NCBI GenBank assembly: GCA_947628665.1
Contig: CANRAU010000012.1
Span: 1-63,234 of the forward strand
Reading direction: 5' to 3'
From: an uncultured Clostridia bacterium
GTDB taxonomy: Bacteria; Bacillota; Clostridia; Oscillospirales; Acutalibacteraceae
Length of the DNA stretch: 63,234 nt
Below the pieces are notes generated by a model that was not told where the DNA came from, ran no database searches, and worked only from the letters and a program-made list of their open reading frames with translations. Shown piece after piece: positions 12,921-25,060 of the stretch (positions within the stretch are counted from its first letter, which is position 1; every line of letters begins with the position of its first letter). The position numbers and the translations under genes are program-made.

Positions 12921-14717
12921 CTACTCGATCGGTTCAAAGTCAACCGCGCCGTGTTTGCACAGCGGGCAAACAAAGTCTTCGGGCAGTTCGTCGCCCTCAT
13001 AGACATAGCCGCACACCTTGCAGACAAAGCCCTTTTTGCCCTGCGTTTCGGGCTTGGGCTTTACGTTCTGCTGATAATAGGTGTAGGTCATGGTTTCCGC
13101 ATCCGAAATGACGCGCGCCTCGGTGACGCTGCAAATAAACATGCCGTGCGTGTCCAAATCCACATACCGCTCCACCTTCAGAGACAAAAACGCGTTGATA
13201 TACCGCGGCAGGAAAGCAAGTCCGTTGTCGGAGCGCAAGGGCGTGCAGTCCGCAAACTTATCCACAGTTCTGCCGCTTTGGAAGCCAAAATTCTCAAACA
13301 CCTGGAAAGGCGCGTCTGTCGATAAGCAGTTCACATTCAGAACGCCCGTCCGCTTGATGACATCGTGGGAATAGTTCGCTTTGCTGATGTTCACCGCCAC
13401 CCGATAGGGGTTGTCGGTCAACTGCGTCACGGTGTTCACGATCAGGCCGTTGTCCTTCGTCCCGTCGTTGCAGGTGACGACATACAGGCCATACCCGATT
13501 TTGAACAAGGCGGTCATATCGCTCTTATTGGCGGTTTCCTCATGTTGGGCGAGGTAATCCATGCAAAGCTCGTCTGCCAAATCCTCGATTTGACTGCGGT
13601 TCTCCGCGTTCAACGCAGACAGAAGGCTGACCGTATGTTTGGTAAAGGTCAGATTCTTGCAGCCCTCCAGCATTTGCTTCATCACCTTGGCTGCCTGCGG
13701 CGCCCAAGAGCCGTTTTCCAAGAAAGCAACCGTGCGGTTTTGGTAATTGCGCTCCGTCAAATGCTCGATGAAAGTGCGCATGAACGGGAAAATATCCGCG
13801 TTGTAGGTCGTGGTTGCCAGCACCAGCTTGCCGTAACGGAACGCGTCCTCCACGGCCTCGGCCATGTCGTCTCGGGCAAGGTCGGTCACCGAGACTTTGG
13901 GGCAGCCCTTCGCGCGCAGCCGCTCGGCCAACAACTGCACCGCTTCTTTGGTGTGACCGTATACCGAGGTATAGGCGATTAGAATGCCCTCGCTTTCCAC
14001 GCGATACGACGACCAAATGTCATAAAGCCCCAAATAATGGTCAAGATTTTCCTTTAACATCGGACCGTGCGTGGGGCAGATGATCTGAATATCGAGATCG
14101 GCAGCCTTTTTCAAAAGCCGCTGCACCTGCGCGCCGTACTTGCCCACAATGCCGATATAATAACGGCGGGCTTCACAGTCCCATTCTTCCTCTACATCCA
14201 ACGCGCCGAATTTCCCGAAGCCGTCGGCGGAGAAAAGAATTTTGTCATAAGAATCATACGAGACAATGACCTCCGGCCAGTGTACCATGGGCGCGGTCAC
14301 AAAGGTCAGCGTGTGCTTGCCAAGTGTAAGCGTGTCTCCCTCGTTCACCACGATGCGGCGGTCAGCATAGTCCGTGCCGAAGAAATGCGCCATCATCGAG
14401 AACGCCTTGGCGGAGGCCACGATCTGCGTGTCGGTATACAAATTCATAAAATCGGTGATACTGCCCGCGTGATCCGGCTCCATATGCTGGATGAGCAGAT
14501 AATCCGGCTTTCTGCCGCCCAAAGCCGCCGATACATGATCGAGCCACTCCTGCGTAAAATGCCGATCCACCGTGTCGATGACAACGGTTTTTTGGTCTAA
14601 GATCACATAGGAATTGTAGGCCATGCCGTTCTCAACGACATACTGCCCTTCAAATAAGTCTACCTCGTGGTCATTGACGCCTACATATTTGACGTCATTG
14701 GTAACATGGATGTCCAT
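12921..14717 (-). CDS. Flavodiiron protein fused to flavin reductase and rubredoxin domains
   Basis: This 598-residue cytoplasmic protein joins four modules. A metallo-beta-lactamase-like diiron domain (about 1-250) has the HMEPDHAGS ligand motif. A flavodoxin domain (about 255-390) contains ILIAYTSVYGHTKEA. A flavin-reductase-like domain (about 400-540) follows. A C-terminal rubredoxin has the two knuckles CKVCGY and CPLCK. Such proteins reduce oxygen or nitric oxide to water or N2O, and the fused domains feed electrons without separate partners. It is a single-gene transcription unit with its own promoter and terminator, as expected for an oxygen or NO scavenger in an anaerobe. Confidence 0.93.
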   Translation of the reverse strand: MDIHVTNDVKYVGVNDHEVDLFEGQYVVENGMAYNSYVILDQKTVVIDTVDRHFTQEWLDHVSAALGGRKPDYLLIQHMEPDHAGSITDFMNLYTDTQIVASAKAFSMMAHFFGTDYADRRIVVNEGDTLTLGKHTLTFVTAPMVHWPEVIVSYDSYDKILFSADGFGKFGALDVEEEWDCEARRYYIGIVGKYGAQVQRLLKKAADLDIQIICPTHGPMLKENLDHYLGLYDIWSSYRVESEGILIAYTSVYGHTKEAVQLLAERLRAKGCPKVSVTDLARDDMAEAVEDAFRYGKLVLATTTYNADIFPFMRTFIEHLTERNYQNRTVAFLENGSWAPQAAKVMKQMLEGCKNLTFTKHTVSLLSALNAENRSQIEDLADELCMDYLAQHEETANKSDMTALFKIGYGLYVVTCNDGTKDNGLIVNTVTQLTDNPYRVAVNISKANYSHDVIKRTGVLNVNCLSTDAPFQVFENFGFQSGRTVDKFADCTPLRSDNGLAFLPRYINAFLSLKVERYVDLDTHGMFICSVTEARVISDAETMTYTYYQQNVKPKPETQGKKGFVCKVCGYVYEGDELPEDFVCPLCKHGAVDFEPIE

Positions 14718-14905: not shown

Positions 14906-15253
14906 TCAAGCGTTTTCGGCGGAATTTCCCTGCATGGCCATATAATCCTCGCCCCATGCTTTCATGGCGTCTAAGATCGGCTGTAGGCTCTGTCCCAGAT
15001 CACTTAGGGCATATTCCACTCTCGGCGGGATCTCCGGATAAACGGTTCGGGTGATCAGCCCGTCCGCCTCCATGGAGCGCAGGCTGTCCGTCAGCACCTT
15101 TTGGCTGATGCCCTCCAGATTTTTCTGCAATTCATTAAAACGCCACGGGCGCCGGAGCAGATTTCGGATAATCAGGAGCTTCCATTTGTTTCCGATCAGT
15201 TGGACGGTCATCGCCACAGGGCATTCGGGGATCAGTTCAGCTTTGGTTTTCAT
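14906..15253 (-). CDS. HxlR-family winged-helix transcriptional regulator
   Basis: The 115-residue protein has the HxlR signature: an N-terminal conserved cysteine (PECPVAMTVQLIGNKWKLLI), a winged helix with RRPWRFNELQKNLEGISQKV, and the wing GLITRTVYPEIPPRVEY. Several HxlR regulators sense aldehydes, quinones or disulfide stress through this cysteine. It is divergent from the ACGX peptide operon and shares about 200 bp of regulatory DNA with it, so it is the obvious candidate regulator of that operon and of itself. Confidence 0.92.
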   Translation of the reverse strand: MKTKAELIPECPVAMTVQLIGNKWKLLIIRNLLRRPWRFNELQKNLEGISQKVLTDSLRSMEADGLITRTVYPEIPPRVEYALSDLGQSLQPILDAMKAWGEDYMAMQGNSAENA

Positions 15254-15329: not shown

Positions 15330-15343
15330 TAGGTTACCAAAAG

Positions 15344-15370
15344 GTGCGCATCCCCATAAAAAAGTGCGTA
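15344..15370. promoter_or_regulatory. Candidate HxlR operator: GTGCGYA direct repeat
   Basis: GTGCGCA (15344-15350) and GTGCGTA (15364-15370) are in direct orientation 20 bp apart, about two helical turns. They lie between the two divergent promoters and abut the -35 of the peptide operon. The repeat is visible; that HxlR binds it is inference. Confidence 0.35.
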
Positions 15371-15371
15371 C

Positions 15372-15399
15372 TTGCGCGGCAAAAAAATATCCGTACAAT
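15372..15399 (+). promoter_or_regulatory. Promoter of the ACGX peptide operon
   Basis: TTGCGC (15372-15377) and TACAAT (15394-15399) are separated by 16 bp, about 50 nt upstream of the peptide ATG at 15451. The weak -35 fits a regulated promoter. Confidence 0.5.
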
Positions 15400-15450: not shown

Positions 15451-15684
15451 ATGGCACTCTCAAACCTGTTTGGATGGGAAAAGAAGGAAGCCGAAGCGCC
15501 TGCTTCTGCCTGCGGTTCTGCTTGCGGCGCGGGCGACAAGCCGGAAGAAAAACCCGCCGCCTGCGGTTCTGCTTGCGGCGCGGGCGATAAGCCCGAAGAA
15601 AAGCCCGCCGCCTGCGGTTCTGCTTGCGGTGCGGGCGATAAGCCCGAGGAAAAGCCCGCCGCCTGCGGCGCTTCCGATCGGTAA
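15451..15684 (+). CDS. ACGX-repeat peptide, predicted RiPP precursor
   Basis: The ATG at 15451 follows a strong AAAGGAGGC ribosome site and gives a 77-residue peptide. The leader-like start (MALSNLFGWEKKEAEAPAS) precedes three perfect 17-residue units, ACGSACGAGDKPEEKPA, and a last ACGASDR, giving seven ACGX tetrapeptides and seven cysteines. Peptides of this type are known as ACGX-repeat peptides and sit next to a cognate radical SAM/SPASM enzyme, which is the next gene here. The modification is presumably on or near the cysteines. The mature product and its function are unknown to me. Confidence 0.9.
   Translation: MALSNLFGWEKKEAEAPASACGSACGAGDKPEEKPAACGSACGAGDKPEEKPAACGSACGAGDKPEEKPAACGASDR
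15508..15660 (+). repeat. Three tandem 51-bp units in the ACGX peptide gene
   Basis: Three 51-bp units encode the 17-residue repeats. They differ at only a few synonymous positions, such as GGCGCGGGCGACAAG versus GGTGCGGGCGATAAG, so the peptide sequence is strictly conserved while the DNA has drifted slightly. Confidence 0.9.
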
Positions 15685-15699
15685 GCGTTTTCCCCAACC

Positions 15700-15729
15700 G
15701 TTCCCGACGGGAATGTTCTTGTCGGGAAC
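15700..15729 (+). terminator. Hairpin between the ACGX precursor gene and its maturase gene
   Basis: The arms GTTCCCGAC (15700-15708) and GTCGGGAAC (15721-15729) form a perfect 9-bp stem with a 12-nt loop, without a long U-run. It may be a partial terminator or an RNA-stabilising hairpin that keeps precursor mRNA more abundant than enzyme mRNA. Confidence 0.55.
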
Positions 15730-15776
15730 CTTTGATCTTATCTCGGCAAAGCCGATTTCTATACGAGGACTTTTGT

Positions 15777-16808
15777 ATGAAACAGTATTTCTCTTTTCAA
15801 TGGCATATCACCGACGAATGCGACCAGCGGTGCAAGCATTGCTATATCTTCTCCGGCGACAAAAGCCATACGCTTTGCTCCATGTCATGGGCGCAGATGC
15901 AGGACACTTTCTATAACTGCTTGGATTTCTGCGAGATGTACGACCGCTTGCCGTATTTCTATATTACGGGCGGCGATCCCATCCTGCATCCCGATTTTTG
16001 GAGATTGCTCGAACTGTTGCATACACGGGATATTCCTTTTACGATCCTTGGCAATCCGTTCCACCTCAACGACCGAATATGCAGAGAATTAAAATTTTTC
16101 GGCTGTCAAAAATATCAGCTGTCCTTAGACGGCTTGCGGGAGACGCACGATTGGTTCCGCAAGCCCGGTTCGTATGACTGCACCTTAGAAAAAATCGGCT
16201 GCATCAATCGAGCCGGGATACGCAGCGTGGTCATGACTACCGTTTCCAAAACGAATCGCATGGAAGTACCCGGTATCATCGACGCCGTCGTGGCGGCGGG
16301 CGCAAATGTGTTCTCCTTTTCGCGCTATGTTCCCTCGGGCGGGGAGTTGGATGCTTCCATGACCCCGCAGGCGTATCGCGAACTGCTCAGCGTGTGCGAT
16401 CAAAAATTCAAGGCATATGAAGCCGCCGGGTGTCAGACCTATTTTAACAAAAAAGACCACCTTTGGACGCTTTACGAATATGAAACGGGGGCGTTCCAAA
16501 TCCCCGAAACGGCGAAGGACGGTATGATCTACGGCGGCTGCAACTGCGGCAACTGCCATATCACCATTCTCCCCACCGGCGATGTGTACGCCTGCCGCAG
16601 AGTGACAAACAGCCGTGTCGGCAATGTGTCGGAAGACCGCCTTGCCGATATTTGGGTGTGCGAAATGGAAGCTTATCGGGATTATGAAAAATTCAAAAAA
16701 TGCAGCAAATGTGAACTGAAAGCATGGTGTCGGGGTTGCCCTGCCGTAGCGAGCGGCACAAACGGCGATTTTTATGCCGCCGACCCACAATGCTGGAAAG
16801 AGGTGTAG
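15777..16808 (+). CDS. Radical SAM/SPASM maturase of the ACGX system
   Basis: The 343-residue enzyme starts at an ATG after ACGAGGACT. It has the radical SAM cluster motif in TDECDQRCKHCY (CxxxCxxC), the GGDP SAM-binding motif, and a SPASM region with cysteines in GGCNCGNCH, VYACRR and CSKCELKAWCRGCP that hold auxiliary iron-sulfur clusters. Sequence and context match the radical SAM family paired with ACGX-repeat peptides. It probably installs a radical-mediated crosslink or epimerisation in the upstream peptide. The stop is 2 bp before the nitroreductase start. Confidence 0.9.
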   Translation: MKQYFSFQWHITDECDQRCKHCYIFSGDKSHTLCSMSWAQMQDTFYNCLDFCEMYDRLPYFYITGGDPILHPDFWRLLELLHTRDIPFTILGNPFHLNDRICRELKFFGCQKYQLSLDGLRETHDWFRKPGSYDCTLEKIGCINRAGIRSVVMTTVSKTNRMEVPGIIDAVVAAGANVFSFSRYVPSGGELDASMTPQAYRELLSVCDQKFKAYEAAGCQTYFNKKDHLWTLYEYETGAFQIPETAKDGMIYGGCNCGNCHITILPTGDVYACRRVTNSRVGNVSEDRLADIWVCEMEAYRDYEKFKKCSKCELKAWCRGCPAVASGTNGDFYAADPQCWKEV

Positions 16809-16810
16809 AT

Positions 16811-17389
16811 ATGGAACTGTCCGAACAAATCAAGGCAAGACGTTCTATCCGCAAATATCAGGATACACAAATTCCCCGCGAGGCCTTGGAAAAGATCATC
16901 GAAGCGGGAACCTACGCCTCCAATGCAGGCGGCGGGCAGCGCAGTATGATCGTGGGCATCCGCAATGCCGAGCTTGTGGAAAAGCTCGGCAAACTGAATA
17001 TGGCGCATTTTGACCGCAGCAGGCTCATCGGCTCCTATGTTTCCAAAGAACAGCCGAGCGTGATCGACGACCCGACCATAAAAAGCGGATTTTACGGCGC
17101 GCCGTCGCTGTGCATCGTATTTGCGCAAAAGGATTTTCTGTTTTCCGTACCCGACGCCTTTTGCTGTGCCGAGAGCATGTGCATGGAGGCTTTTGACCTC
17201 GGCATTTCCTCCTGCATCGTCTCCCGCGCCGAAGAGACCTTTTTGAGCGAAGAGGGCAGAGTTTTTCTTCGGGAATGGGGCGTGCCGGAAAATTATATCG
17301 GTCGTTGCTTTGTTACGCTCGGCTATTGCGACGGATCGTATCCCAAAGCGAAACCCCGACGCGAAAATCGGGTTGTTATCGTGGAATGA
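16811..17389 (+). CDS. Nitroreductase-family FMN oxidoreductase
   Basis: This 192-residue protein has the nitroreductase fold, with the N-terminal RRSIRKYQDTQIPREALEKI signature that binds FMN phosphate and the C-terminal VTLGYCDG motif. It is an NAD(P)H-dependent flavoprotein of the cytoplasm. Possible substrates are nitro compounds, quinones or an enone intermediate. It begins 2 bp after the radical SAM gene, so it is co-translated with it. Some family members act as dehydrogenases in RiPP pathways, which leaves a peptide-modifying role open. Confidence 0.88.
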   Translation: MELSEQIKARRSIRKYQDTQIPREALEKIIEAGTYASNAGGGQRSMIVGIRNAELVEKLGKLNMAHFDRSRLIGSYVSKEQPSVIDDPTIKSGFYGAPSLCIVFAQKDFLFSVPDAFCCAESMCMEAFDLGISSCIVSRAEETFLSEEGRVFLREWGVPENYIGRCFVTLGYCDGSYPKAKPRRENRVVIVE

Positions 17390-17400
17390 GGTGTGATACA

Positions 17401-18018
17401 ATGGATGCACAAACTTGTTTGAAGAAATTGGAATATGTGGGCGTATTGGCTTTTGCCACGGTGGACGAGAATGGCGCGCCGCAGATACGCAATATCAGCG
17501 CCATCCACTACGAGCCGAATCGAATGCTCTTCTTTACGGCGAAAGGAAAGGCGTTTTGCAAAGAGCTTTTGCGTGACGGACGGGTGCAGGTTCTGGGCTA
17601 TACAAAGTATAAAGAGATGATCCGTCTGTCGGCAAAGGCGATTCCCGTCCCAGAGGACGAACAGGAGAAGTGGATCGACACGATTTTTGCGGAGCAGCCG
17701 TATCTTTCCAATGTATATCCCGGCGATACACGAAAACCGGCGGGAATCGTCTTTGAAATTCAAAATGCCGAAATTGAATATTTCAATCTCGGCGTCAATC
17801 CGATCTTTAGGGAGAGCTACACCATCGGCGCGGGCAACCTCACCCCAAAGGGATATTTCATTACCGAAAAATGTATCGGATGCGGCAAATGCTTAAAAAA
17901 TTGTCCGCAACGGTGCATCCGGCCGGGGAAACCCTATCAAATCCAACAGGAGCATTGCCTGCATTGCGGGAACTGTTTTTCGGTATGTCCCGCAAAAGCA
18001 GTCGAAAGGAGGATGTAA
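17401..18018 (+). CDS. Pyridoxamine-phosphate-oxidase-like flavin protein fused to a 2[4Fe-4S] ferredoxin domain
   Basis: The 205-residue protein has an N-terminal split-barrel flavin-binding domain of the pyridoxamine 5'-phosphate oxidase family (about 1-140, with GVLAFATVDENGAPQIRNIS). Its C-terminal ferredoxin has two CxxCxxCxxxC motifs, CIGCGKCLKNCP and CLHCGNCFSVCP. It should pass electrons between a flavin and low-potential clusters. In this operon it could supply reducing equivalents to the radical SAM enzyme or couple to the neighbouring nitroreductase. It ends 1 bp before the macrodomain gene. Confidence 0.88.
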   Translation: MDAQTCLKKLEYVGVLAFATVDENGAPQIRNISAIHYEPNRMLFFTAKGKAFCKELLRDGRVQVLGYTKYKEMIRLSAKAIPVPEDEQEKWIDTIFAEQPYLSNVYPGDTRKPAGIVFEIQNAEIEYFNLGVNPIFRESYTIGAGNLTPKGYFITEKCIGCGKCLKNCPQRCIRPGKPYQIQQEHCLHCGNCFSVCPAKAVERRM

Positions 18019-18019
18019 C

Positions 18020-18793
18020 ATGACGCAGACTGAGCGAAGGGTCTTTCTGATCCAAGCCCTGCTTGACGAGCAGCCGCAGTATCAAAGCATAACCGTTCCG
18101 AAAACTGCGGAGGAGCAAAAGGTGCTGCTGCGCTCGCTTTTGAATGTTCGCCCGCCGAAACCCATAGGTGATGACTTCCTCGCGGTGCAGGACGCATATC
18201 TGCAAGCGGAGATCGCCGCGAAAGGGATCACCGGTATAGCCGACCTGTCGCCCATCAAGGACGGCTTGTATCTTTGGCAGGGCGATATTACAACGCTTCG
18301 CTGCGGCGCGATCGTCAATGCCGCAAACAGCGGCATGACCGGATGCTATGCCCCTTGTCACGCCTGTATCGACAACTGCATTCACACCTTCTCGGGAATC
18401 CAGCTTCGCCTGGCCTGTGCGGAATTGATTGCCGCACAGGGACACGCCGAGCCGACGGGGCAGGCAAAAATCACATCGGCCTACAATCTCCCCTGCGAAT
18501 ACGTCATCCACACGGTTGGACCGATCGTTTCTACGCGGGTGAGCGAAAGAGACCGTCAACTGCTTGCGTCCTGTTACCGCTCGTCTTTGGAATTGGCGGT
18601 GCAAAATGGTGTACAAAGCCTTGCGTTCTGCTGCATTTCAACCGGGGAATTTCATTTCCCGAACGCCGAAGCGGCGCAAATCGCGGTGGAGACGGTGCGC
18701 ACGTATCGGGAACAGACAAACAGCGACATAGAGGTGATTTTCAATGTGTTCAAGAATATCGACGCCAAAATCTACCGAGAATTGCTCGGATAA
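18020..18793 (+). CDS. Zinc-dependent macrodomain protein-ADP-ribose hydrolase
   Basis: The 257-residue protein has an N-terminal helical extension and a macrodomain (about 80-257) with the ADP-ribose loop GDITTLRCGAIVNAANS. The zinc-binding segment GCYAPCHACIDNCIH is typical of Zn-macrodomains. These enzymes remove ADP-ribose placed on proteins by SirTM sirtuins and are normally encoded beside them, as here. The start lies 1 bp after the upstream stop, and the next gene begins 1 bp after this one. The substrate protein is not identifiable from the locus. Confidence 0.93.
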   Translation: MTQTERRVFLIQALLDEQPQYQSITVPKTAEEQKVLLRSLLNVRPPKPIGDDFLAVQDAYLQAEIAAKGITGIADLSPIKDGLYLWQGDITTLRCGAIVNAANSGMTGCYAPCHACIDNCIHTFSGIQLRLACAELIAAQGHAEPTGQAKITSAYNLPCEYVIHTVGPIVSTRVSERDRQLLASCYRSSLELAVQNGVQSLAFCCISTGEFHFPNAEAAQIAVETVRTYREQTNSDIEVIFNVFKNIDAKIYRELLG

Positions 18794-18794
18794 C

Positions 18795-19613
18795 ATGAAG
18801 CGCCTGCAAGAGGCGCTCGACGCGGCGGACGCCGTGGTGATCGGCGCGGGGGCGGGGCTTTCCACCGCGGCGGGATTTGTCTATACCGGGGATCGATTCC
18901 AACAATTCTTTTCCGATTTTGCCGCCAAATACGGCTTTCGGGATATGTATTCGGGCGGCTTTTATCCCTATGCGTCCCCCGAAGAATACTGGGCGTATTG
19001 GAGTCGGTATATTTTCATCAACCGCTATTTGGACGCCCCAAAGCCCGTTTATGAGAATCTGCTCCAATTGGTACAGGACAAGGATTACTTTGTTATCACC
19101 ACAAATGTCGATCACTGCTTTCAAAAGGCGGGTTTCGATAAAAAACGGCTGTTTTATACGCAGGGCGATTACGGTCTGTTCCAATGCTCCGTACCCTGCT
19201 GTAACGAAACCTTCGACAATGAGGCCGTGATCCGGCGGATGGTGGAGCGGCAAAAGGATATGCGTATTCCGTCGGAGCTTCTGCCCGTTTGCCCGCATTG
19301 CGGCAAGCCCATGGCCATGAATCTGCGCGCCGATGACAAATTTGTCGAGGATGAGGGCTGGCTGGAGGCCGCCGAACGGTATGAAAACTTCCTGCGCACA
19401 AGGCAGGGGCAACGCATCGTGTTTTTAGAATTGGGCGTCGGCTACAACACCCCCGTGATCATAAAATACCCGTTTTGGCGCATGACCGCGCAGAACCCGA
19501 AAGCGACCTATGTTTGCATCAATTTCGGCGAGGCGGATTGCCCGAAGGAAATCGAGAAGCAGTCTATTTGCATAAACGAAGATATTGCGGATGTGCTGCA
19601 AGGCCTGCGGTAA
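18795..19613 (+). CDS. SirTM (class M) sirtuin, predicted protein ADP-ribosyltransferase
   Basis: The ATG at 18795 gives a 272-residue protein with the sirtuin NAD-binding motifs GAGAGLSTAAG and TTNVDH. In place of the catalytic His of deacylating sirtuins it has YTQGDYGLFQCS, the hallmark of SirTM transferases. A structural zinc pair of cysteines is visible in the CSVPCC and CPHCGKP segments. In Staphylococcus and Streptococcus SirTM modifies a lipoylated GcvH-like protein encoded in the same operon. No such gene or lipoate ligase is present here, so the target must differ or lie elsewhere. Confidence 0.93.
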   Translation: MKRLQEALDAADAVVIGAGAGLSTAAGFVYTGDRFQQFFSDFAAKYGFRDMYSGGFYPYASPEEYWAYWSRYIFINRYLDAPKPVYENLLQLVQDKDYFVITTNVDHCFQKAGFDKKRLFYTQGDYGLFQCSVPCCNETFDNEAVIRRMVERQKDMRIPSELLPVCPHCGKPMAMNLRADDKFVEDEGWLEAAERYENFLRTRQGQRIVFLELGVGYNTPVIIKYPFWRMTAQNPKATYVCINFGEADCPKEIEKQSICINEDIADVLQGLR

Positions 19614-19698: not shown

Positions 19699-22600
19699 TT
19701 ACGACTCTGTTTGATCAGAAGCTTTGCCGCGCTTCCGCGCCGCAACGGCGCTGACAAGCCCGGGAACGCTTGCACTGACCAGCGCCAACCACATCACCAA
19801 ACGGCGGCCGTTGCCGGTCGGCGGGATCACAACGGCGTCGTTGACATGATCCTTACCGCCCGTCGTATTCTGACCGTTTGTATTGTCGGTCGACGGTTTC
19901 GTCGTCGGCTCGGTCGACGGTTTCGTCGTCGGTTCGGTCGACGGTTCAGTAGACGGATTGGTCGACGGTTCAGTAGACGGATCGGTCGACGGTTCAGTAG
20001 ACGGATCGGTCGGCGGTTCAGTAGACGGATCGGTCGACGGTTCAGTAGACGGATCGGTCGACGGTTCAATGCCTGTCGCCGCAAGAACGGTTTCCTCTTT
20101 CGTAATGGGCTGCGTTAAGGCTTCATCCTTAAAGCACTGCCCGCAGGTCTCGCAATACCAGTAGGCAATATTACCGTCCTCTGTGGCCGTGGGCTCTTTG
20201 GCCTCGACCTTCGTTACGATATGCCCCAGCGCATCGACTGCAATCGTCTGCGCATCCGTGTATTCCTGCCCTTCAAATACCGCTTTGGCGGTATAATCGG
20301 CAACGCCCTCTTCGGTGCAGGTCGGGTCTTTTGTGATGCCGCCCTCCACCGTGACTTGCGGCGTCTGTGTCGACTTGCAGTTGGAGCAAGTCATCGTAAG
20401 GGTCGCGGTGACTTCGCCCTCGGTGAACCATTGCCAGCCGACAGGCTCTATACTCCAATTGTGACCCACAGCGGAGGTGGTCTCAGAATTCACTTCGCCG
20501 CAGACTCGGCAGATACCGACATTTTCGCCTCCGGTCAAGCAGCCGGCAGGCGTAGACAGCGCGGGATCGGGAACGATCTCATGGGGCAACAGGTCGCCTG
20601 CTTCCACAACGGAATTCTGCAAATTGCAAACTTCGCATTGATAGATCTTTTCCGCGTGATGTACACAGGTGGCCGGCTTCGTCTCAACAGGTTCTGCACC
20701 GAATTTGTGTTCCGTCATAGGTACATCGACTTTAAGCACATTCTGAACGGTTACTTTTCCGGCAGTAACGGTCGCGGTGTACGTGGATTCACCCATCTCG
20801 GTGCAGGTAGGCGCCTTGCTTACGGTCGGAGCGCTGAGCGTGGCGACAAACGCCTCCTGATGGGTAGGATCGTTCTTGCAGGTCAATACGACCGATGCGG
20901 AAATTTCGCCCTCGTTAGACCAATGCCATACTGCGGAATCGGGATCCCAATCGTGTCCCGTTGCGGGAACGACCTGCGGCTGGTCAATAATGTCATGACA
21001 AACGGCGCAGCGTGTACCGCCCTTTCTGCCGTCTGTCGTGCAGGTTGCGGGAATTTCTTCCAGCGGTTCGGGCGTATGCTGATCGCTTTTCAGCTGCTCG
21101 CCGCATACGGTGCAGACAGAACCGGCAACGTGGCCTTCAAATTTGTGTCCTGTTGCAAGGAGGCGTTCTTCCTTGACTTTCCAGTCGCCGCAGACCGTGC
21201 ACTGCTCTCCGGCGGTATGGCCGTCTTGGGTACAGGTGGGATCCTTGGCGGGCGTGATTTCGTACTGGTGGCCTTTTTCACAGGCGAAAGCACCGCACTT
21301 TGTGCAAAGACCGTTCTCGCCGAAATCGTGTCCTGTTTTGGTACCCTCCTTGACCACCAATTCCGTTTCGGTACACCACTTGCATTGATAGACGTCAACT
21401 TCGTCATCCGTGCAGGTAGCGACTTTTGTTTCAATCTTCTGTTCAAACTCATGATCGACACTGCCGGAAGCGACGATCTGCGTCTCTTTCTGCGTTTTGC
21501 AGCGGTCGCACACGGCAACCTTGGCCTGCCCCTGGCAGGTCGGATCGCCTTCGTCGACATAATTCGTAAAGACGTGGCCGAGCGCGGGGATCTCTGTATT
21601 CGTGGAAAGCTCATCGCCGCACGTTGTACACTTTACATAGTCGCGTGTACCGTTCGCCGTGCAGGTGGCGGCTTTGCCCTTGGTATAGAATCCGTCTTTC
21701 GTCTTGTCGATCGTGTGGCCGGTAGCGGGGATCACATGCCCCTCGGTAAGCGTCTGCCCGCAGTCGGCGCACTGTGTGCCAAGTGCATAACCGTCGGTCG
21801 TGCAGGTGGCTTCTTTCGCCTGATGCTCGGGATCCTGCACCTCGACGACTTCGGTGTGCGTACAGACGGCGGGAACAACGGCATTGCCGTACTCTTTTTC
21901 CTCGGTCTCCTTGACCGTCTGTTTAATGAACGTAACATTGAGAACCGCACCGTCCTCGGGATCGGTAACGGTGAATTGATTGTTGTTGACCGAAATCTGC
22001 TCGCCGTCCAGCGATACCGTGTTCACGACATAGCCGGGTTTGGGGTCAACGGTAAAGGTCTTGGAAGCGCCTTGCGTAAATTTCACATTGCCGTCTTCAT
22101 TGACAGCGGTAACTTCCTTAGTGCCGTTGTTGTATTTAACGGTGCCGTTCGAGTCGGAAACGACGATCAGGGTCTTGTCGGTAGAGGCGGTAGCTGCCTT
22201 AGCTGCGCCGTCCTTTTGGACAGCCACGATCTCAAACGGAGAGAACGCGTCGCACATAATGACCATGCCGTAGGGCGTGGGGATAATTTTGATCTCCTCC
22301 ACGGAGATGATGTGCGAACCCCACTTGTGGGTTTGCTGCTCTGCGGGCGATTCCTTTTTATATTCTTCACACAACTCGTTTTGGGCGCAGCGCGTGAAGT
22401 GGTAAGCCTTTAATTCCACATTCCCGCTGCCCAAGCTCTCATAAGTGACCCCGGCAGGATAGCCGACCTGCACGCGCAGGGACTGACCCTGATTGGGTTT
22501 GAGTTTGACCATGGGGCAAATGCGGTTGAAGTTGATCTCAAACACGGAGGAGGCCAGAATATCCCCATCCACTTGGCCGTTTTCTTCCAGGTAACCGTCG

Positions 22601-25011
22601 ATTTTTTCGTATTCTTCACGGTTGCCCGAACCCTTGCTCTTATTCTCGACGACCAGCATCAGACGACCGTTCAGATCGCTGGTGTTCATTTCTCTGTTCA
22701 GAGCTTCAAGGGTGTCTTTATCCGTTCCGCCGGTTTGCGCCATACCGTACAGGTCGAGATTTTCGGGCGCATCCAAAAGCGTAGGCTGTCCCCAAAGGTT
22801 CCAGTCTATCCCCTGGCTTCTGTAGCAGGCGGGGCAAAGGCCGGGAACTACTGCGATCACCGAGAAATTGTTGGCATATTTCAAGGAGCGCGAACCGACG
22901 ACGCCCTCGATGGAGAAGTTGTATTCCGTAACGTCGTCTATCCACTGATCGGAAGCGCGGAAATTAAACTCGACGCCGATGATCGGGCAGCCCTTCTCCA
23001 CGGAGCAGGGCTCATCGCCCTTGACGTGATAGGCCTCGTTCGGGCATTTGACGCCCTGACCGCCTGTTTCGGTCGAATCGGACTTGTAGATCCATCTGAA
23101 GTCGGTATATTCGCTCGTCATATCGACAACGCCGTCACGGTTCGCATCAAAGGGCAGCTCGCCGCAGACCTGCGTTGCCATGATGGCGCCGCTGTGCAGA
23201 TCCTGCTGGTTGGTGCTATAGCGAACCTGAACCGTCTGCTGCTTCGCGTCTTCGTAATTGTTGACAAAGTTGGTGTCTACCGCAGTGGCGGATATGCCGT
23301 TGCGGGCGTCGCTGTCGTTCGGCAGGATATGGTAAAGGTCATCGTCAAAAATAACTTTGAATCTGTAGGTATAGCCCGCGGTGGCGTTGCCGTTGGGAGC
23401 AGGCGTCTGGCTGACGACATAAGGCGGCGCCTCATAGGTCGAGTTGACGTTGTAGAGCATCCCGGAGGTGGCAACGATCTCGCTCTCGTCGCCGTGGAAG
23501 TAACCCGCCTCATAATGCTGAGACAGATAGCTCGTGGCGGGATTATTGCTCCACTGATCGTAATGGTCGGGCTGGCGCGAGGTGACCGCGATTTCGCAGT
23601 ACTCGCAGGTCGCGCTCGAAAAACGCAGGCCGTCGGGCTGATCGCCGAAATAAGGGCTGTCGCCTATAAGGAGCAAGGACGCGTCAACATAGTACCATTC
23701 ATCCATGATGCTGGCCGTCCCGTCGGGATGGTAGTCGTACATCTTGATGATAAAATAGAAGCCTTTTTTGGCAGCTTCCTTGGCGTTCATGCCTTGGAAT
23801 GTGGCGGTATAGACACCTGCGGGCACACCGTCTTCCTGCGAACCGCCCGCAGAGTATTTGACCTTGAGGCCGTTGTCATCTTCAAACACGGTGGAACCCG
23901 AATACGCGTTGACCTCAATGGTCGGATACTGGAATTCAAAGTTGCCCGTCGAAACATAGCCGGAAGGCTGCCAGTATTGGCCGACAAGCGACTGCCCCAC
24001 CAAAAGATAGGTATTGGTCTCTTTTTCGTCAAGGCCGCCCTTGAACGAAAGATCCCGCGTGCCGTCCCAGTTTGCGGTAAGCGGATCGTCCCAAGTAGCG
24101 TCTACCACATACCAGTGTTCCCCGGTCTCATCGGGGATGTTGACGGCATTCCACATATGATCCTCGGGCGTACCCTTGCTTTGGACGCCGTGGATCAGGA
24201 CGCACTCGATGCCCAGCTTCGTAAGGCAGACCTGCAGGGTGCGGGCATATGCCTCACAAACGCCCTCATGCGTCACGATACCGTAAATCGTGCGGATATA
24301 TTTGGCATTGGCGTTCGGAACGTCATCGATCGTTCTGCACTCGGTTTCATAACGGTAATGGATCTGCCGAACGATTTGGTCATGAACCGAAGTAACGAGC
24401 ATGGCCTCTCTGTCTTGCTCGGAGAAAGGCTGACCGGCACGATCCTCGGCGGTTTGCAGACTCTTCAGAGCCTCGTCGGTGATCGCTTGGATCGCCTTGT
24501 CGATCTCTTTGGTCTTGCCTTCCACATCGTCAAGTTCTTTGCCCGCCAGCAGATAGGTGTCGCCTCTGCCGGGGCCAATCAAGACGTGGTAGCCGTCGGA
24601 ATCCTGCGTGACCTGGAAGGACAGATACCCCGAATCCATATACCAAAGCTCGGAATGGTCTAAATCCAGGGCGTCCTTTGCGGCGGCGAAATCGTTAAAG
24701 ATATCTTTGTTGCCTTTTTTCACATAGTCATCGACATCCGTTTTGTCGATGACCGTTTCGCCGTCCCTGGTAAGTCCAAACAGGTCGATAAATTCCGTAC
24801 CTGTATAATACTTATCCGCATGCTTTGTAAATTCGTCTAAGAGCTTATCGTAAATCGCTTTCGCGCGATCATTAAGCTGCTCATAAAAATAGTCAGATTT
24901 GATTTCTTTCACTTGATAGGCGTTGCCGGCCGAAAAAGCTTCTATCGGCAGCAACGGAAGCACTATCGCCAATGAAAGGAAGAGTGAGATGATTCTCCGT
25001 CTCATTTTCAT
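19699..25011 (-). CDS. Giant cell-surface protein with transglutaminase-like domain, Cys-rich repeats and C-terminal sorting signal
   Basis: The protein of about 1770 residues has a signal peptide (MKMRRRIISLFLSLAIVLPL). A transglutaminase-like domain (about 210-340) shows the Cys in HEGVCEAYARTLQ, the His in DHMWNAV and the Asp in YVVDATWDDP. A beta-rich middle follows, with an InlB-like repeat near 950-1030. A long run of CxxC-containing repeats of the CTTDGYALGTQCADCGQ type spans about 1050-1600. A TEPSTDPS linker and a PPTG-type sortase signal with hydrophobic segment and basic tail end it. It is exported and wall-anchored. The catalytic fold could be peptidase-like or crosslinking. A TTG at 25020 is an alternative start. 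Confidence 0.88.
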   Translation of the reverse strand: MKMRRRIISLFLSLAIVLPLLPIEAFSAGNAYQVKEIKSDYFYEQLNDRAKAIYDKLLDEFTKHADKYYTGTEFIDLFGLTRDGETVIDKTDVDDYVKKGNKDIFNDFAAAKDALDLDHSELWYMDSGYLSFQVTQDSDGYHVLIGPGRGDTYLLAGKELDDVEGKTKEIDKAIQAITDEALKSLQTAEDRAGQPFSEQDREAMLVTSVHDQIVRQIHYRYETECRTIDDVPNANAKYIRTIYGIVTHEGVCEAYARTLQVCLTKLGIECVLIHGVQSKGTPEDHMWNAVNIPDETGEHWYVVDATWDDPLTANWDGTRDLSFKGGLDEKETNTYLLVGQSLVGQYWQPSGYVSTGNFEFQYPTIEVNAYSGSTVFEDDNGLKVKYSAGGSQEDGVPAGVYTATFQGMNAKEAAKKGFYFIIKMYDYHPDGTASIMDEWYYVDASLLLIGDSPYFGDQPDGLRFSSATCEYCEIAVTSRQPDHYDQWSNNPATSYLSQHYEAGYFHGDESEIVATSGMLYNVNSTYEAPPYVVSQTPAPNGNATAGYTYRFKVIFDDDLYHILPNDSDARNGISATAVDTNFVNNYEDAKQQTVQVRYSTNQQDLHSGAIMATQVCGELPFDANRDGVVDMTSEYTDFRWIYKSDSTETGGQGVKCPNEAYHVKGDEPCSVEKGCPIIGVEFNFRASDQWIDDVTEYNFSIEGVVGSRSLKYANNFSVIAVVPGLCPACYRSQGIDWNLWGQPTLLDAPENLDLYGMAQTGGTDKDTLEALNREMNTSDLNGRLMLVVENKSKGSGNREEYEKIDGYLEENGQVDGDILASSVFEINFNRICPMVKLKPNQGQSLRVQVGYPAGVTYESLGSGNVELKAYHFTRCAQNELCEEYKKESPAEQQTHKWGSHIISVEEIKIIPTPYGMVIMCDAFSPFEIVAVQKDGAAKAATASTDKTLIVVSDSNGTVKYNNGTKEVTAVNEDGNVKFTQGASKTFTVDPKPGYVVNTVSLDGEQISVNNNQFTVTDPEDGAVLNVTFIKQTVKETEEKEYGNAVVPAVCTHTEVVEVQDPEHQAKEATCTTDGYALGTQCADCGQTLTEGHVIPATGHTIDKTKDGFYTKGKAATCTANGTRDYVKCTTCGDELSTNTEIPALGHVFTNYVDEGDPTCQGQAKVAVCDRCKTQKETQIVASGSVDHEFEQKIETKVATCTDDEVDVYQCKWCTETELVVKEGTKTGHDFGENGLCTKCGAFACEKGHQYEITPAKDPTCTQDGHTAGEQCTVCGDWKVKEERLLATGHKFEGHVAGSVCTVCGEQLKSDQHTPEPLEEIPATCTTDGRKGGTRCAVCHDIIDQPQVVPATGHDWDPDSAVWHWSNEGEISASVVLTCKNDPTHQEAFVATLSAPTVSKAPTCTEMGESTYTATVTAGKVTVQNVLKVDVPMTEHKFGAEPVETKPATCVHHAEKIYQCEVCNLQNSVVEAGDLLPHEIVPDPALSTPAGCLTGGENVGICRVCGEVNSETTSAVGHNWSIEPVGWQWFTEGEVTATLTMTCSNCKSTQTPQVTVEGGITKDPTCTEEGVADYTAKAVFEGQEYTDAQTIAVDALGHIVTKVEAKEPTATEDGNIAYWYCETCGQCFKDEALTQPITKEETVLAATGIEPSTDPSTEPSTDPSTEPPTDPSTEPSTDPSTEPSTNPSTEPSTEPTTKPSTEPTTKPSTDNTNGQNTTGGKDHVNDAVVIPPTGNGRRLVMWLALVSASVPGLVSAVAARKRGKASDQTES
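19886..20068 (-). repeat. Tandem 24-bp repeat encoding the Thr/Glu/Pro/Ser/Asp linker
   Basis: Units of the type ggttcagtagacggatcggt recur about every 24 bp and encode TEPSTDPS on the minus strand. This is a flexible, rigid-rod wall-spanning linker just before the sortase signal. Copy number is probably variable. Confidence 0.9.
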
Positions 25012-25060
25012 AGTTTCCAAAATCCTCCTTACTTTTTCAGATTGTACTTGGAACGCCTGT

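Follow-up and report, generated by a model that had tools for sequence, protein, structure and literature searches.

Why would a bacterium encode a modified peptide in one operon with a pair of enzymes for reversible ADP-ribosylation, and could the peptide itself be what these enzymes act on? The question is raised by positions 15,451 to 19,613 of a 63,234-nucleotide stretch of contig CANRAU010000012.1 (assembly GCA_947628665.1) from an uncultured Clostridia bacterium of the family Acutalibacteraceae; this whole stretch is called the window below. The locus encodes an ACGX-repeat precursor peptide, its radical SAM/SPASM maturase, a nitroreductase-family protein, a PNPOx-like domain fused to a ferredoxin-type part (PNPOx-ferredoxin), a Zn-macrodomain (Zn-Macro) and a class M sirtuin (SirTM). 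The six genes listed in an initial annotation of this DNA were all present, in the order given there and on one strand, and the gene gaps of 1–11 bp that it reported were borne out (2, 11, 1 and 1 bp, plus a 92-bp spacer between precursor and maturase). The pairing of precursor and maturase was likewise confirmed, as the two genes are adjacent and both products score above curated cut-offs. A gene for an HxlR/DUF24 regulator, which the annotation did not mention, also belongs to the operon unit and is divergently oriented. We found that the coupling of peptide and SirTM genes is a real and recurrent feature in the phylum of the window, and that the peptide is a possible, though not a probable, substrate of SirTM.

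Recurrence of the Peptide–SirTM Link

The surroundings of the maturase gene were compared in 80 named loci, the best 80 of at least 561 candidate maturase relatives (GTDB-species genomes, tblastn E-values up to 1e-3), a choice biased towards close relatives. Many of these loci come from rabbit-gut ('Lapin') metagenome-assembled genomes (MAGs), in which mis-binning is possible; the link was also observed in records not titled MAG, including L093 (Butyrivibrio sp. INlla14), L107 (Agathobaculum sp. Marseille-P7918), and L118 (Ruminococcus bromii YE282). A SirTM was counted as nearby when a match of at least 60 amino acids lay within 6 kb on either strand. The initial annotation had named a usual separation of the macrodomain/SirTM pair from the ACGX genes as a finding that would speak against the coupling. 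The sampled loci did not show such a separation: SirTM was nearby in 38 of the 51 named loci that offered 5 kb or more of downstream sequence, and 28 of the 31 genomes with a maturase contained it. When a SirTM match of at least 150 amino acids was required, 37 of the 51 loci were retained, in all of which the gene was downstream and on the same strand. The same 51 loci contained a Zn-Macro in 33 cases (all 33 with SirTM), a PNPOx-ferredoxin match in 37, a nitroreductase in 27, and an MDR gene of the zinc-dehydrogenase type (ADH_N/ADH_zinc_N) in 20. These linkage counts rule out that the genes are chance neighbors.

At the genome level, a maturase above the cut-off was found in 12 of 295 genomes sampled from the order, 16 of 391 from the class, and 9 of 398 from the phylum, that is, in 31 distinct genomes, and in 19 of these 31 SirTM lay no more than 5 kb from the maturase gene on the same contig. 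Within the order set 62 of the 295 genomes had SirTM, and within the class set 69 of the 391. When these two sets were combined (668 genomes, 18 of them shared), SirTM was encoded by 23 of the 24 genomes with a maturase and by 100 of the other 644 (Fisher p = 4e-17, uncorrected for kinship), and it was also present in five of the seven further maturase genomes of the phylum set. The co-occurrence was still seen when counted by genus (p = 8e-8 for the class and 3e-6 for the order, with genera counted by hand). Three genomes below the cut-off were left out of these counts: G469 (308 bits), G201 (a maturase fragment at a contig end, with SirTM elsewhere), and G273 (a maturase fragment with SirTM adjoining).

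In a SirTM tree of 101 rows (55 peptide-linked and 46 not), the peptide label changed 16 times by parsimony, at least seven times on starred branches ('quick' method), compared with about 34 changes for shuffled labels. Since the link changed repeatedly, it is not one frozen inheritance. It was made or broken repeatedly and is also clustered, and both properties fit a useful but dispensable partnership. Two peptide loci, L120 and L097, have distant SirTMs (40–41% identity) that are set apart in the tree on a long branch, which gives the impression that the operon recruited a second SirTM lineage.

The nitroreductase cluster was present in 39 of 64 peptide-linked SirTM loci, some of whose contigs were counted twice, versus none of 47 other SirTM loci, and the MDR cluster in 18 of 64 versus none of 47. 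Both genes therefore appear tied to the peptide rather than to SirTM, as they were seen only with the peptide. In Mantel tests (200 permutations), which cannot separate co-evolution from shared descent, the pair of maturase and nitroreductase was the weakest (rho 0.24, with 7 of 200 permutations as high).

Gene Products and Motifs of the Operon

The features of the operon unit are listed in Table 1. In the maturase, the radical SAM motif CX3CX2C (C15, C19, and C22) and seven cysteines of the SPASM region (C257, C273, C309, C312, C318, C321, and C339) were invariant in 25 sequences. The nearest solved chains by sequence were 5wgg (41 bits) and SkfB 6efn (39 bits); an AlphaFold2 model of the maturase (mean pLDDT 85) was not used as a basis for any conclusion.

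Table 1. Features of the ACGX–SirTM operon unit, with positions in the window and the matches that identify them.
Feature	Position	Strand	Evidence
HxlR/DUF24-family regulator	14906-15253	-	Pfam HxlR PF01638, 112 bits; divergent
Putative HxlR operator	15332-15373		GGTTACCAAAAGGTGCGCA (15332-15350) and AAGTGCGTACTT (15362-15373)
ACGX-repeat precursor, 77 aa	15451-15684	+	TIGR04341, 81 bits (cut-off 28)
Inverted repeat, 9-bp perfect stem	15700-15708 / 15721-15729	+	In the 92-bp precursor–maturase spacer
Radical SAM/SPASM maturase, ACGX system	15777-16808	+	TIGR04340, 593 bits (cut-off 400); Pfam Radical_SAM and SPASM
FMN nitroreductase-family protein	16811-17389	+	Pfam PF00881, 71 bits
PNPOx-like flavin-type domain fused to [4Fe-4S] ferredoxin-type part	17401-18018	+	PNPOx_N, 40 bits; Fer4, 46 bits in two stretches
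Zn-macrodomain, protein-ADP-ribose hydrolase type	18020-18793	+	NF003163, 357 bits (cut-off 272)
SirTM (class M sirtuin, ADP-ribosyltransferase type)	18795-19613	+	248 bits to solved SpySirTM 5a3a

The macrodomain is close to solved Zn-Macros (8rsi, 256 bits, aligned over residues 3-256; 5kiv, 253 bits). Its NAAN motif (100-103), the Cx4HxC Zn loop (C109, H114, and C116), and the Dx3H motif (D118 and H122) were invariant in 35 of 35 aligned relatives. NAAN, Zn loop, and Dx3H are among the features by which the Zn-Macro group is described (PMC11490716), and all three were found here together with the N-terminal extension. SirTM, whose gene is separated from that of the Zn-Macro by 1 bp, was matched by the Pfam SIR2 model at 21 bits, below the cut-off of 24. 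It has Q123-G124 in place of HG; Q123, G124, and N104 were conserved in 41 of 41 aligned relatives and R178 in 14 sequences, and a GVGYNTP stretch fits the GVGx[NT]TP motif. The activity of SpySirTM is reported to drop strongly when the Asn, Gln, or Arg at the equivalent position is mutated (PMC4518038). With their motifs intact, both enzymes look catalytically competent.

A membership of the locus in an anti-phage system was also considered and rejected, as the PADLOC matches were only weak (pVip for the maturase at 43 and 25 bits, BrxP for the ferredoxin part at 24 bits) and the nitroreductase, the macrodomain, SirTM, and HxlR gave none. No Rfam family matched anywhere in the window.

The Precursor Repeats and Their Predicted Cross-Links

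Precursors share a short leader of the MALSNLxGW type followed by a core of repeats; that of the window has the leader MALSNLFGW, which contains no double-glycine site, and a 51-bp repeat in 3.2 copies (15508-15668). A precursor was read in 73 of 81 loci (the 80 named loci and the window), giving 72 unique peptides with 457 cysteines, and three to ten cysteines in short repeats were counted per peptide in a sample of precursors. No precursor was read in the other eight loci: L049 and L059 lacked a recognized start, and L058, L062, L071, L097, L098, and L117 gave none. Ample upstream DNA was available only at L058 among these; there the maturase match is full-length, with 4.6 kb of upstream DNA, and the search used found no ACGX precursor.

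Cysteine was absent from the first 12 residues (81 unique precursors). In the core, an Asp or Glu followed at position +4 for 274 of the 457 cysteines, compared with a mean of 60 and a maximum of 79 when the cores were shuffled within peptides, and no acidic residue occurred at +1, +2, or +3. Another cysteine was found at +4 for 161 of them, 154 of which lie in CX3CX3[D/E], so that 428 of the 457 cysteines fit CX3D/E or CX3CX3D/E. Seen from the acidic side, 243 of 259 core Asp residues, and only 31 of 342 core Glu residues, had a cysteine at −4. The divergent precursors of L041-L043 kept the acidic residue at +4 and had Pro instead of the usual following Lys, and those of L115 and L118 used Glu in most repeats, which argues that the pair of cysteine and acid is the conserved feature. 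A lipoyl-like attachment site at the frequent DK dipeptide of the repeats (235 cases) was also considered; it was set aside because Pro follows the acidic residue in L041-L043.

PapB is reported to form thioether linkages of Cys to Asp or Glu in CX3D/E (PMC9413430), and the repeats described here would suit the same reaction; in the doubled CX3CX3D repeats, one cysteine per unit would stay free.

The spacer between precursor and maturase contains an inverted repeat. Its predicted fold had a z-score of −3.9 in the window, the median over 66 spacers was −3.2, and a perfect stem of at least 7 bp was found in 45 of the 66 (these z-scores and the motif controls given below are based on mononucleotide shuffles). 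This element may set the ratio of precursor to enzyme.

A Conserved Redox-Type Regulator and Its Putative Operator

Sixty-one named loci extend 2 kb or more upstream of the maturase, and in all of these except L123 (60 of 61) a divergent HxlR gene precedes it. The only cysteine of the regulator, the N-terminal C11, was invariant in 51 of 51 aligned relatives. The putative operator of the window lies just upstream of a −10-like sequence, TACAAT (15394-15399). The motif AAGTACGC was present, on either strand, in 73 of 76 unique intergenic regions between regulator and precursor (shuffled mean 0.4, maximum 2), and the 12-mer AAGTACGCACTT in 48 of the 76, beside an element resembling GTTACAAAAAGGTGCGTA. 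A related pattern, GTGC[GT]TACTT, was detected in 14 of 19 HxlR-adjacent regions of SirTM loci without a maturase (shuffled mean 0.04, maximum 1); one of these 14 belongs to L172, a decayed peptide locus. Binding of HxlR to the operator-like motif is a prediction, as is the ligand that it would sense.

For YodB, CatR, HypR, and QsrR, members of the same family, quinones, diamide, or HOCl are reported as signals that act on an N-terminal cysteine, and nitroreductases are among the flavoenzymes under their control (PMC6798810, PMC6943732). The suggestion of the initial annotation that the locus serves a redox-stress response gains support from three features: the HxlR/DUF24 regulator with its invariant cysteine, the operator-like motif that is conserved in front of the operon, and the presence of flavin-type and Fe-S enzymes.

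A Model for the Operon and the Candidate Substrate of SirTM

Lipoylated GcvH-L is described as the only established SirTM target, with Asp27 as its likely ADP-ribosylation site, and the targets of other SirTM/Zn-Macro systems as unknown (PMC11490716, PMC4518038). A search for GcvH gave no match in the genome of the window, which is 99% complete, and was positive in 13 of 14 control genomes, so GcvH was rejected as a hidden SirTM substrate in this organism. Among 30 of the 31 maturase genomes (G151 was not included), a full GcvH match (E < 1e-30) was obtained in only four, with weak, partial matches in four more. The operon offers a genetically linked candidate target where full GcvH is mostly missing (26 of the 30 genomes tested). 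The precursor is unusually dense in Asp, Glu, and Cys, and by analogy with GcvH-L it may be the substrate that SirTM modifies, a proposal that we hold to be possible without calling it probable.

The following sequence of events can be proposed. Oxidants or electrophiles would hit the single cysteine of the HxlR sensor and switch the operon on. The maturase would bind the ACGX peptide at its MALSNLxGW leader and, in the manner of PapB on CX3D/E, might link Cys by a thioether to the Asp or Glu four residues on, the other cysteine of CX3CX3D staying free. The modified peptide would remain in the cell as a repeat-bearing thiol/thioether carrier, with the nitroreductase, the PNPOx-ferredoxin or, in other genomes, the zinc-dehydrogenase-type MDR enzyme as possible partners. 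SirTM would use NAD+ to place ADP-ribose on Asp/Glu or Cys of the peptide and the Zn-macrodomain would remove it, an action modeled on that of the same pair on lipoyl-GcvH-L in Staphylococcaceae and Lactobacillales; Zn-Macros are reported to cleave Asp/Glu-linked ADP-ribose and, according to a 2024 paper, Cys-linked ADP-ribose as well (PMC11490716). As a whole, the reading that we favor over its rivals, an operon for redox stress in which ADP-ribose is attached to the modified peptide and removed again, seems to us a reasonable possibility that falls a little short of an even chance. Its boldest part, that a ribosomally synthesized and post-translationally modified peptide (RiPP) cross-linked by a radical SAM enzyme undergoes reversible ADP-ribosylation, and that a thioether/thiol peptide replaces lipoyl-GcvH-L as a second, independent kind of SirTM carrier, is put forward more tentatively still.

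Several observations weigh against this partnership, beginning with the places where its halves come apart. SirTM was not near the maturase in 13 of the 51 named loci. When these 13 and three further loci with less flanking sequence were followed by whole-genome searches, SirTM was found in 12 of the 16 genomes and in none of the other four. It was likewise not found in G151, G711, and G945, whose maturases are above the cut-off, or in G469, whose maturase is below it. Conversely, the 100 SirTM-positive genomes among 644 without a maturase show that SirTM also occurs alone. The genera that hold both genes also include genomes with SirTM and no maturase, and the genome-level co-occurrence is therefore partly inherited. 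Five peptide-linked SirTM loci (L071, L097, L100, L112, and L122) had no Zn-Macro match in their flanking sequence, and the SirTM counts include a contig-end fragment (G989, among the 19 of 31 linked genomes) and distant or broken copies (G909 and G999). At L172, HxlR, PNPOx-ferredoxin, Zn-Macro, and SirTM are kept, and the maturase and parts of its neighbors have been lost, possibly through an assembly fault. The chemistry invites similar caution: the maturase is only distantly PapB-like (NF047865, 62.9 bits, below the cut-off of 340), so that thioether formation is a prediction. Acidic residues at +8 of the cysteines (328 of 457) are commoner than at +4, an excess that stems from the doubled repeats, and the common ancestry of the repeats means that the shuffles exaggerate their independence. 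Finally, a full GcvH was found in none of 20 tested genomes out of the 100 with SirTM only, three of which gave weak matches; other SirTM targets must therefore be present there, and these could serve here too.

Two further observations concern the decayed loci and the incomplete ones. At L172, the start of the precursor runs into the remains of the nitroreductase, and L046 similarly has kept the SirTM end of the operon, its maturase being lost or cut to a C-terminal fragment. Among the five peptide-linked loci in which the writer lacks its usual neighbor, the eraser, the SirTM of L122 is an 89-amino-acid partial match and that of L097 a distant one.

The fact that both halves occur alone makes a serious rival of a second explanation, in which they merely share a regulon: the peptide module and the SirTM/Zn-Macro module would answer one redox signal separately under one HxlR promoter, and the peptide would never be ADP-ribosylated. 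We regard this as somewhat doubtful. Among the 44 maturase-less SirTM loci with at least 4 kb of upstream sequence (of 47 analyzed, which are a part of those found), 41 had a Zn-Macro; when matches of 60 amino acids or more were required, a divergent HxlR was present in 18 and a PNPOx-ferredoxin in 10 (19 and 11 without this length filter). The presence of HxlR at these peptide-less loci, with GTGC[GT]TACTT in 14 of the 19 regions, is what a shared regulon predicts, as is its presence at 60 of 61 peptide loci with or without SirTM. The excess of SirTM in maturase genomes (23 of 24 versus 100 of 644), its usual position a short way downstream in the same orientation (37 of 51), and the failure to find the known substrate GcvH in the genome of the window argue instead for a closer connection.

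A third explanation keeps the ADP-ribosylation within the operon and moves its target: SirTM would modify an enzyme, most likely the PNPOx-ferredoxin or else the maturase, and thereby gate electron flow, the peptide being the product or cofactor of the pathway. The PNPOx-ferredoxin cluster was found in 42 of 64 peptide-linked and 11 of 47 peptide-free SirTM loci, and its distances closely track those of the Zn-Macro (rho 0.76, 18 loci). It was, however, missing at 22 of the 64 and 36 of the 47, and the substrate known for SirTM belongs to the small modified carriers rather than to the oxidoreductases (PMC4518038). This explanation appears unlikely.

It is less likely again that the peptide is a Cys-rich buffer for metals or electrophiles, like glutathione or a metallothionein, whose thiols the maturase would protect or tune, with ADP-ribosylation being incidental. 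Such a role would suit the three to ten cysteines in short repeats, the lack, by eye, of a recurrent exporter or peptidase cluster on the strand of the operon, and the response of HxlR/DUF24 sensors to quinones, diamide, and HOCl (PMC6798810, PMC6943732); it would not obviously require the strict Asp/Glu at +4, and a radical SAM enzyme would presumably be a costly addition to it.

Radical SAM maturases often produce sactipeptide or ranthipeptide antibiotics, and a MatE-family transporter gene, from the only transporter cluster recognized around the loci, lies about 2.2 kb upstream in seven of them; an ordinary exported antimicrobial RiPP beside the SirTM pair by chance is nevertheless very improbable, as that gene is on the opposite strand in six of the seven, no protease cluster recurred by eye, the leader in the window lacks a double-glycine site, and the linkage with redox genes recurs.

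Returning to reversible ADP-ribosylation of the peptide: if this proposal is true, RiPP chemistry and NAD+-based signaling converge in one pathway, with peptide, maturase, writer, and eraser encoded side by side.

Other Features of the Window

Next to the operon unit, on the minus strand (12921-14717), a four-part redox fusion combines flavodiiron (ODP beta-lactamase), flavodoxin, flavin reductase, and rubredoxin-like parts. No match to it longer than 50 amino acids was listed for 94 loci, and it seems to lie outside the operon unit. Downstream of SirTM, also on the minus strand (19699-25020), is the gene of a 1773-amino-acid surface-type protein with a transglutaminase-like core and CxxC-bearing repeats; a 24-bp tandem repeat in 7.6 copies (19886-20068) lies near its C-terminus. 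At the edge of the window, a tandem array of 234-bp units (3-767, 3.3 copies, 93% matches) overlaps an open reading frame for 374 amino acids (147-1271).

Comparison with Known Systems

The precursor and maturase are clear members of the ACGX system (TIGR04341 and TIGR04340, NCBIfam), for which Haft and Basu 2011 is reportedly the primary paper. The NCBIfam entries name nothing beyond the peptide pair, to which the present analysis adds the context of SirTM/Zn-Macro, HxlR, and flavoproteins; the family is thereby placed in a setting of redox stress and receives a predicted chemistry, thioethers at Cys-X3-Asp/Glu, as well as a predicted switch. Among the titles and beginnings of abstracts listed in searches of open-licence PMC papers, none joined ACGX or TIGR04340/04341 with SirTM or a macrodomain.

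As in the PapA/PapB ranthipeptide system, a Cys-X3-Asp/Glu motif is repeated and the maturase is of the radical SAM/SPASM type. The precursors described here differ in their ACGx repeats, often with a paired extra cysteine, and the maturase reaches 63 bits with the PapB model, its chemistry being a prediction. The likeness to the HxlR/DUF24 redox regulons of YodB, CatR, HypR, and QsrR lies in the conserved N-terminal cysteine and the controlled nitroreductase and flavoenzyme genes; a peptide maturase and an ADP-ribosylation pair set the putative regulon here apart from those, and sensing is predicted.

The closest comparison is with the extended SirTM operon of Lactobacillales and Staphylococcaceae, which comprises GcvH-L, LplA2, Zn-Macro, SirTM, OYE, and LLM (Rack 2015 and Ariza 2024; PMC4518038, PMC11490716). 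The main text of neither paper contains the words 'radical', 'nitroreductase', or 'ferredoxin'. GcvH-L and LplA2 families were not among the eight window proteins scanned, and no genome-wide search for LplA was made. In the present locus, the ACGX peptide and its radical SAM/SPASM maturase stand in place of GcvH-L and LplA2, a nitroreductase and a PNPOx-ferredoxin are found instead of OYE and LLM, and the HxlR/DUF24 gene is divergent. The locus is a variant of the SirTM operon built from kinds of enzymes that were already known; what is new is the CX3D/E pattern of the peptide, a putative HxlR operator motif shared with SirTM operons that lack the peptide, and a genome in which GcvH was not detected. 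In both operons the Zn-Macro and SirTM genes are neighbors whose products have full motifs, and both pair a small carrier, here a candidate one, with its modifying enzyme and share two oxidoreductases and a theme of redox stress.

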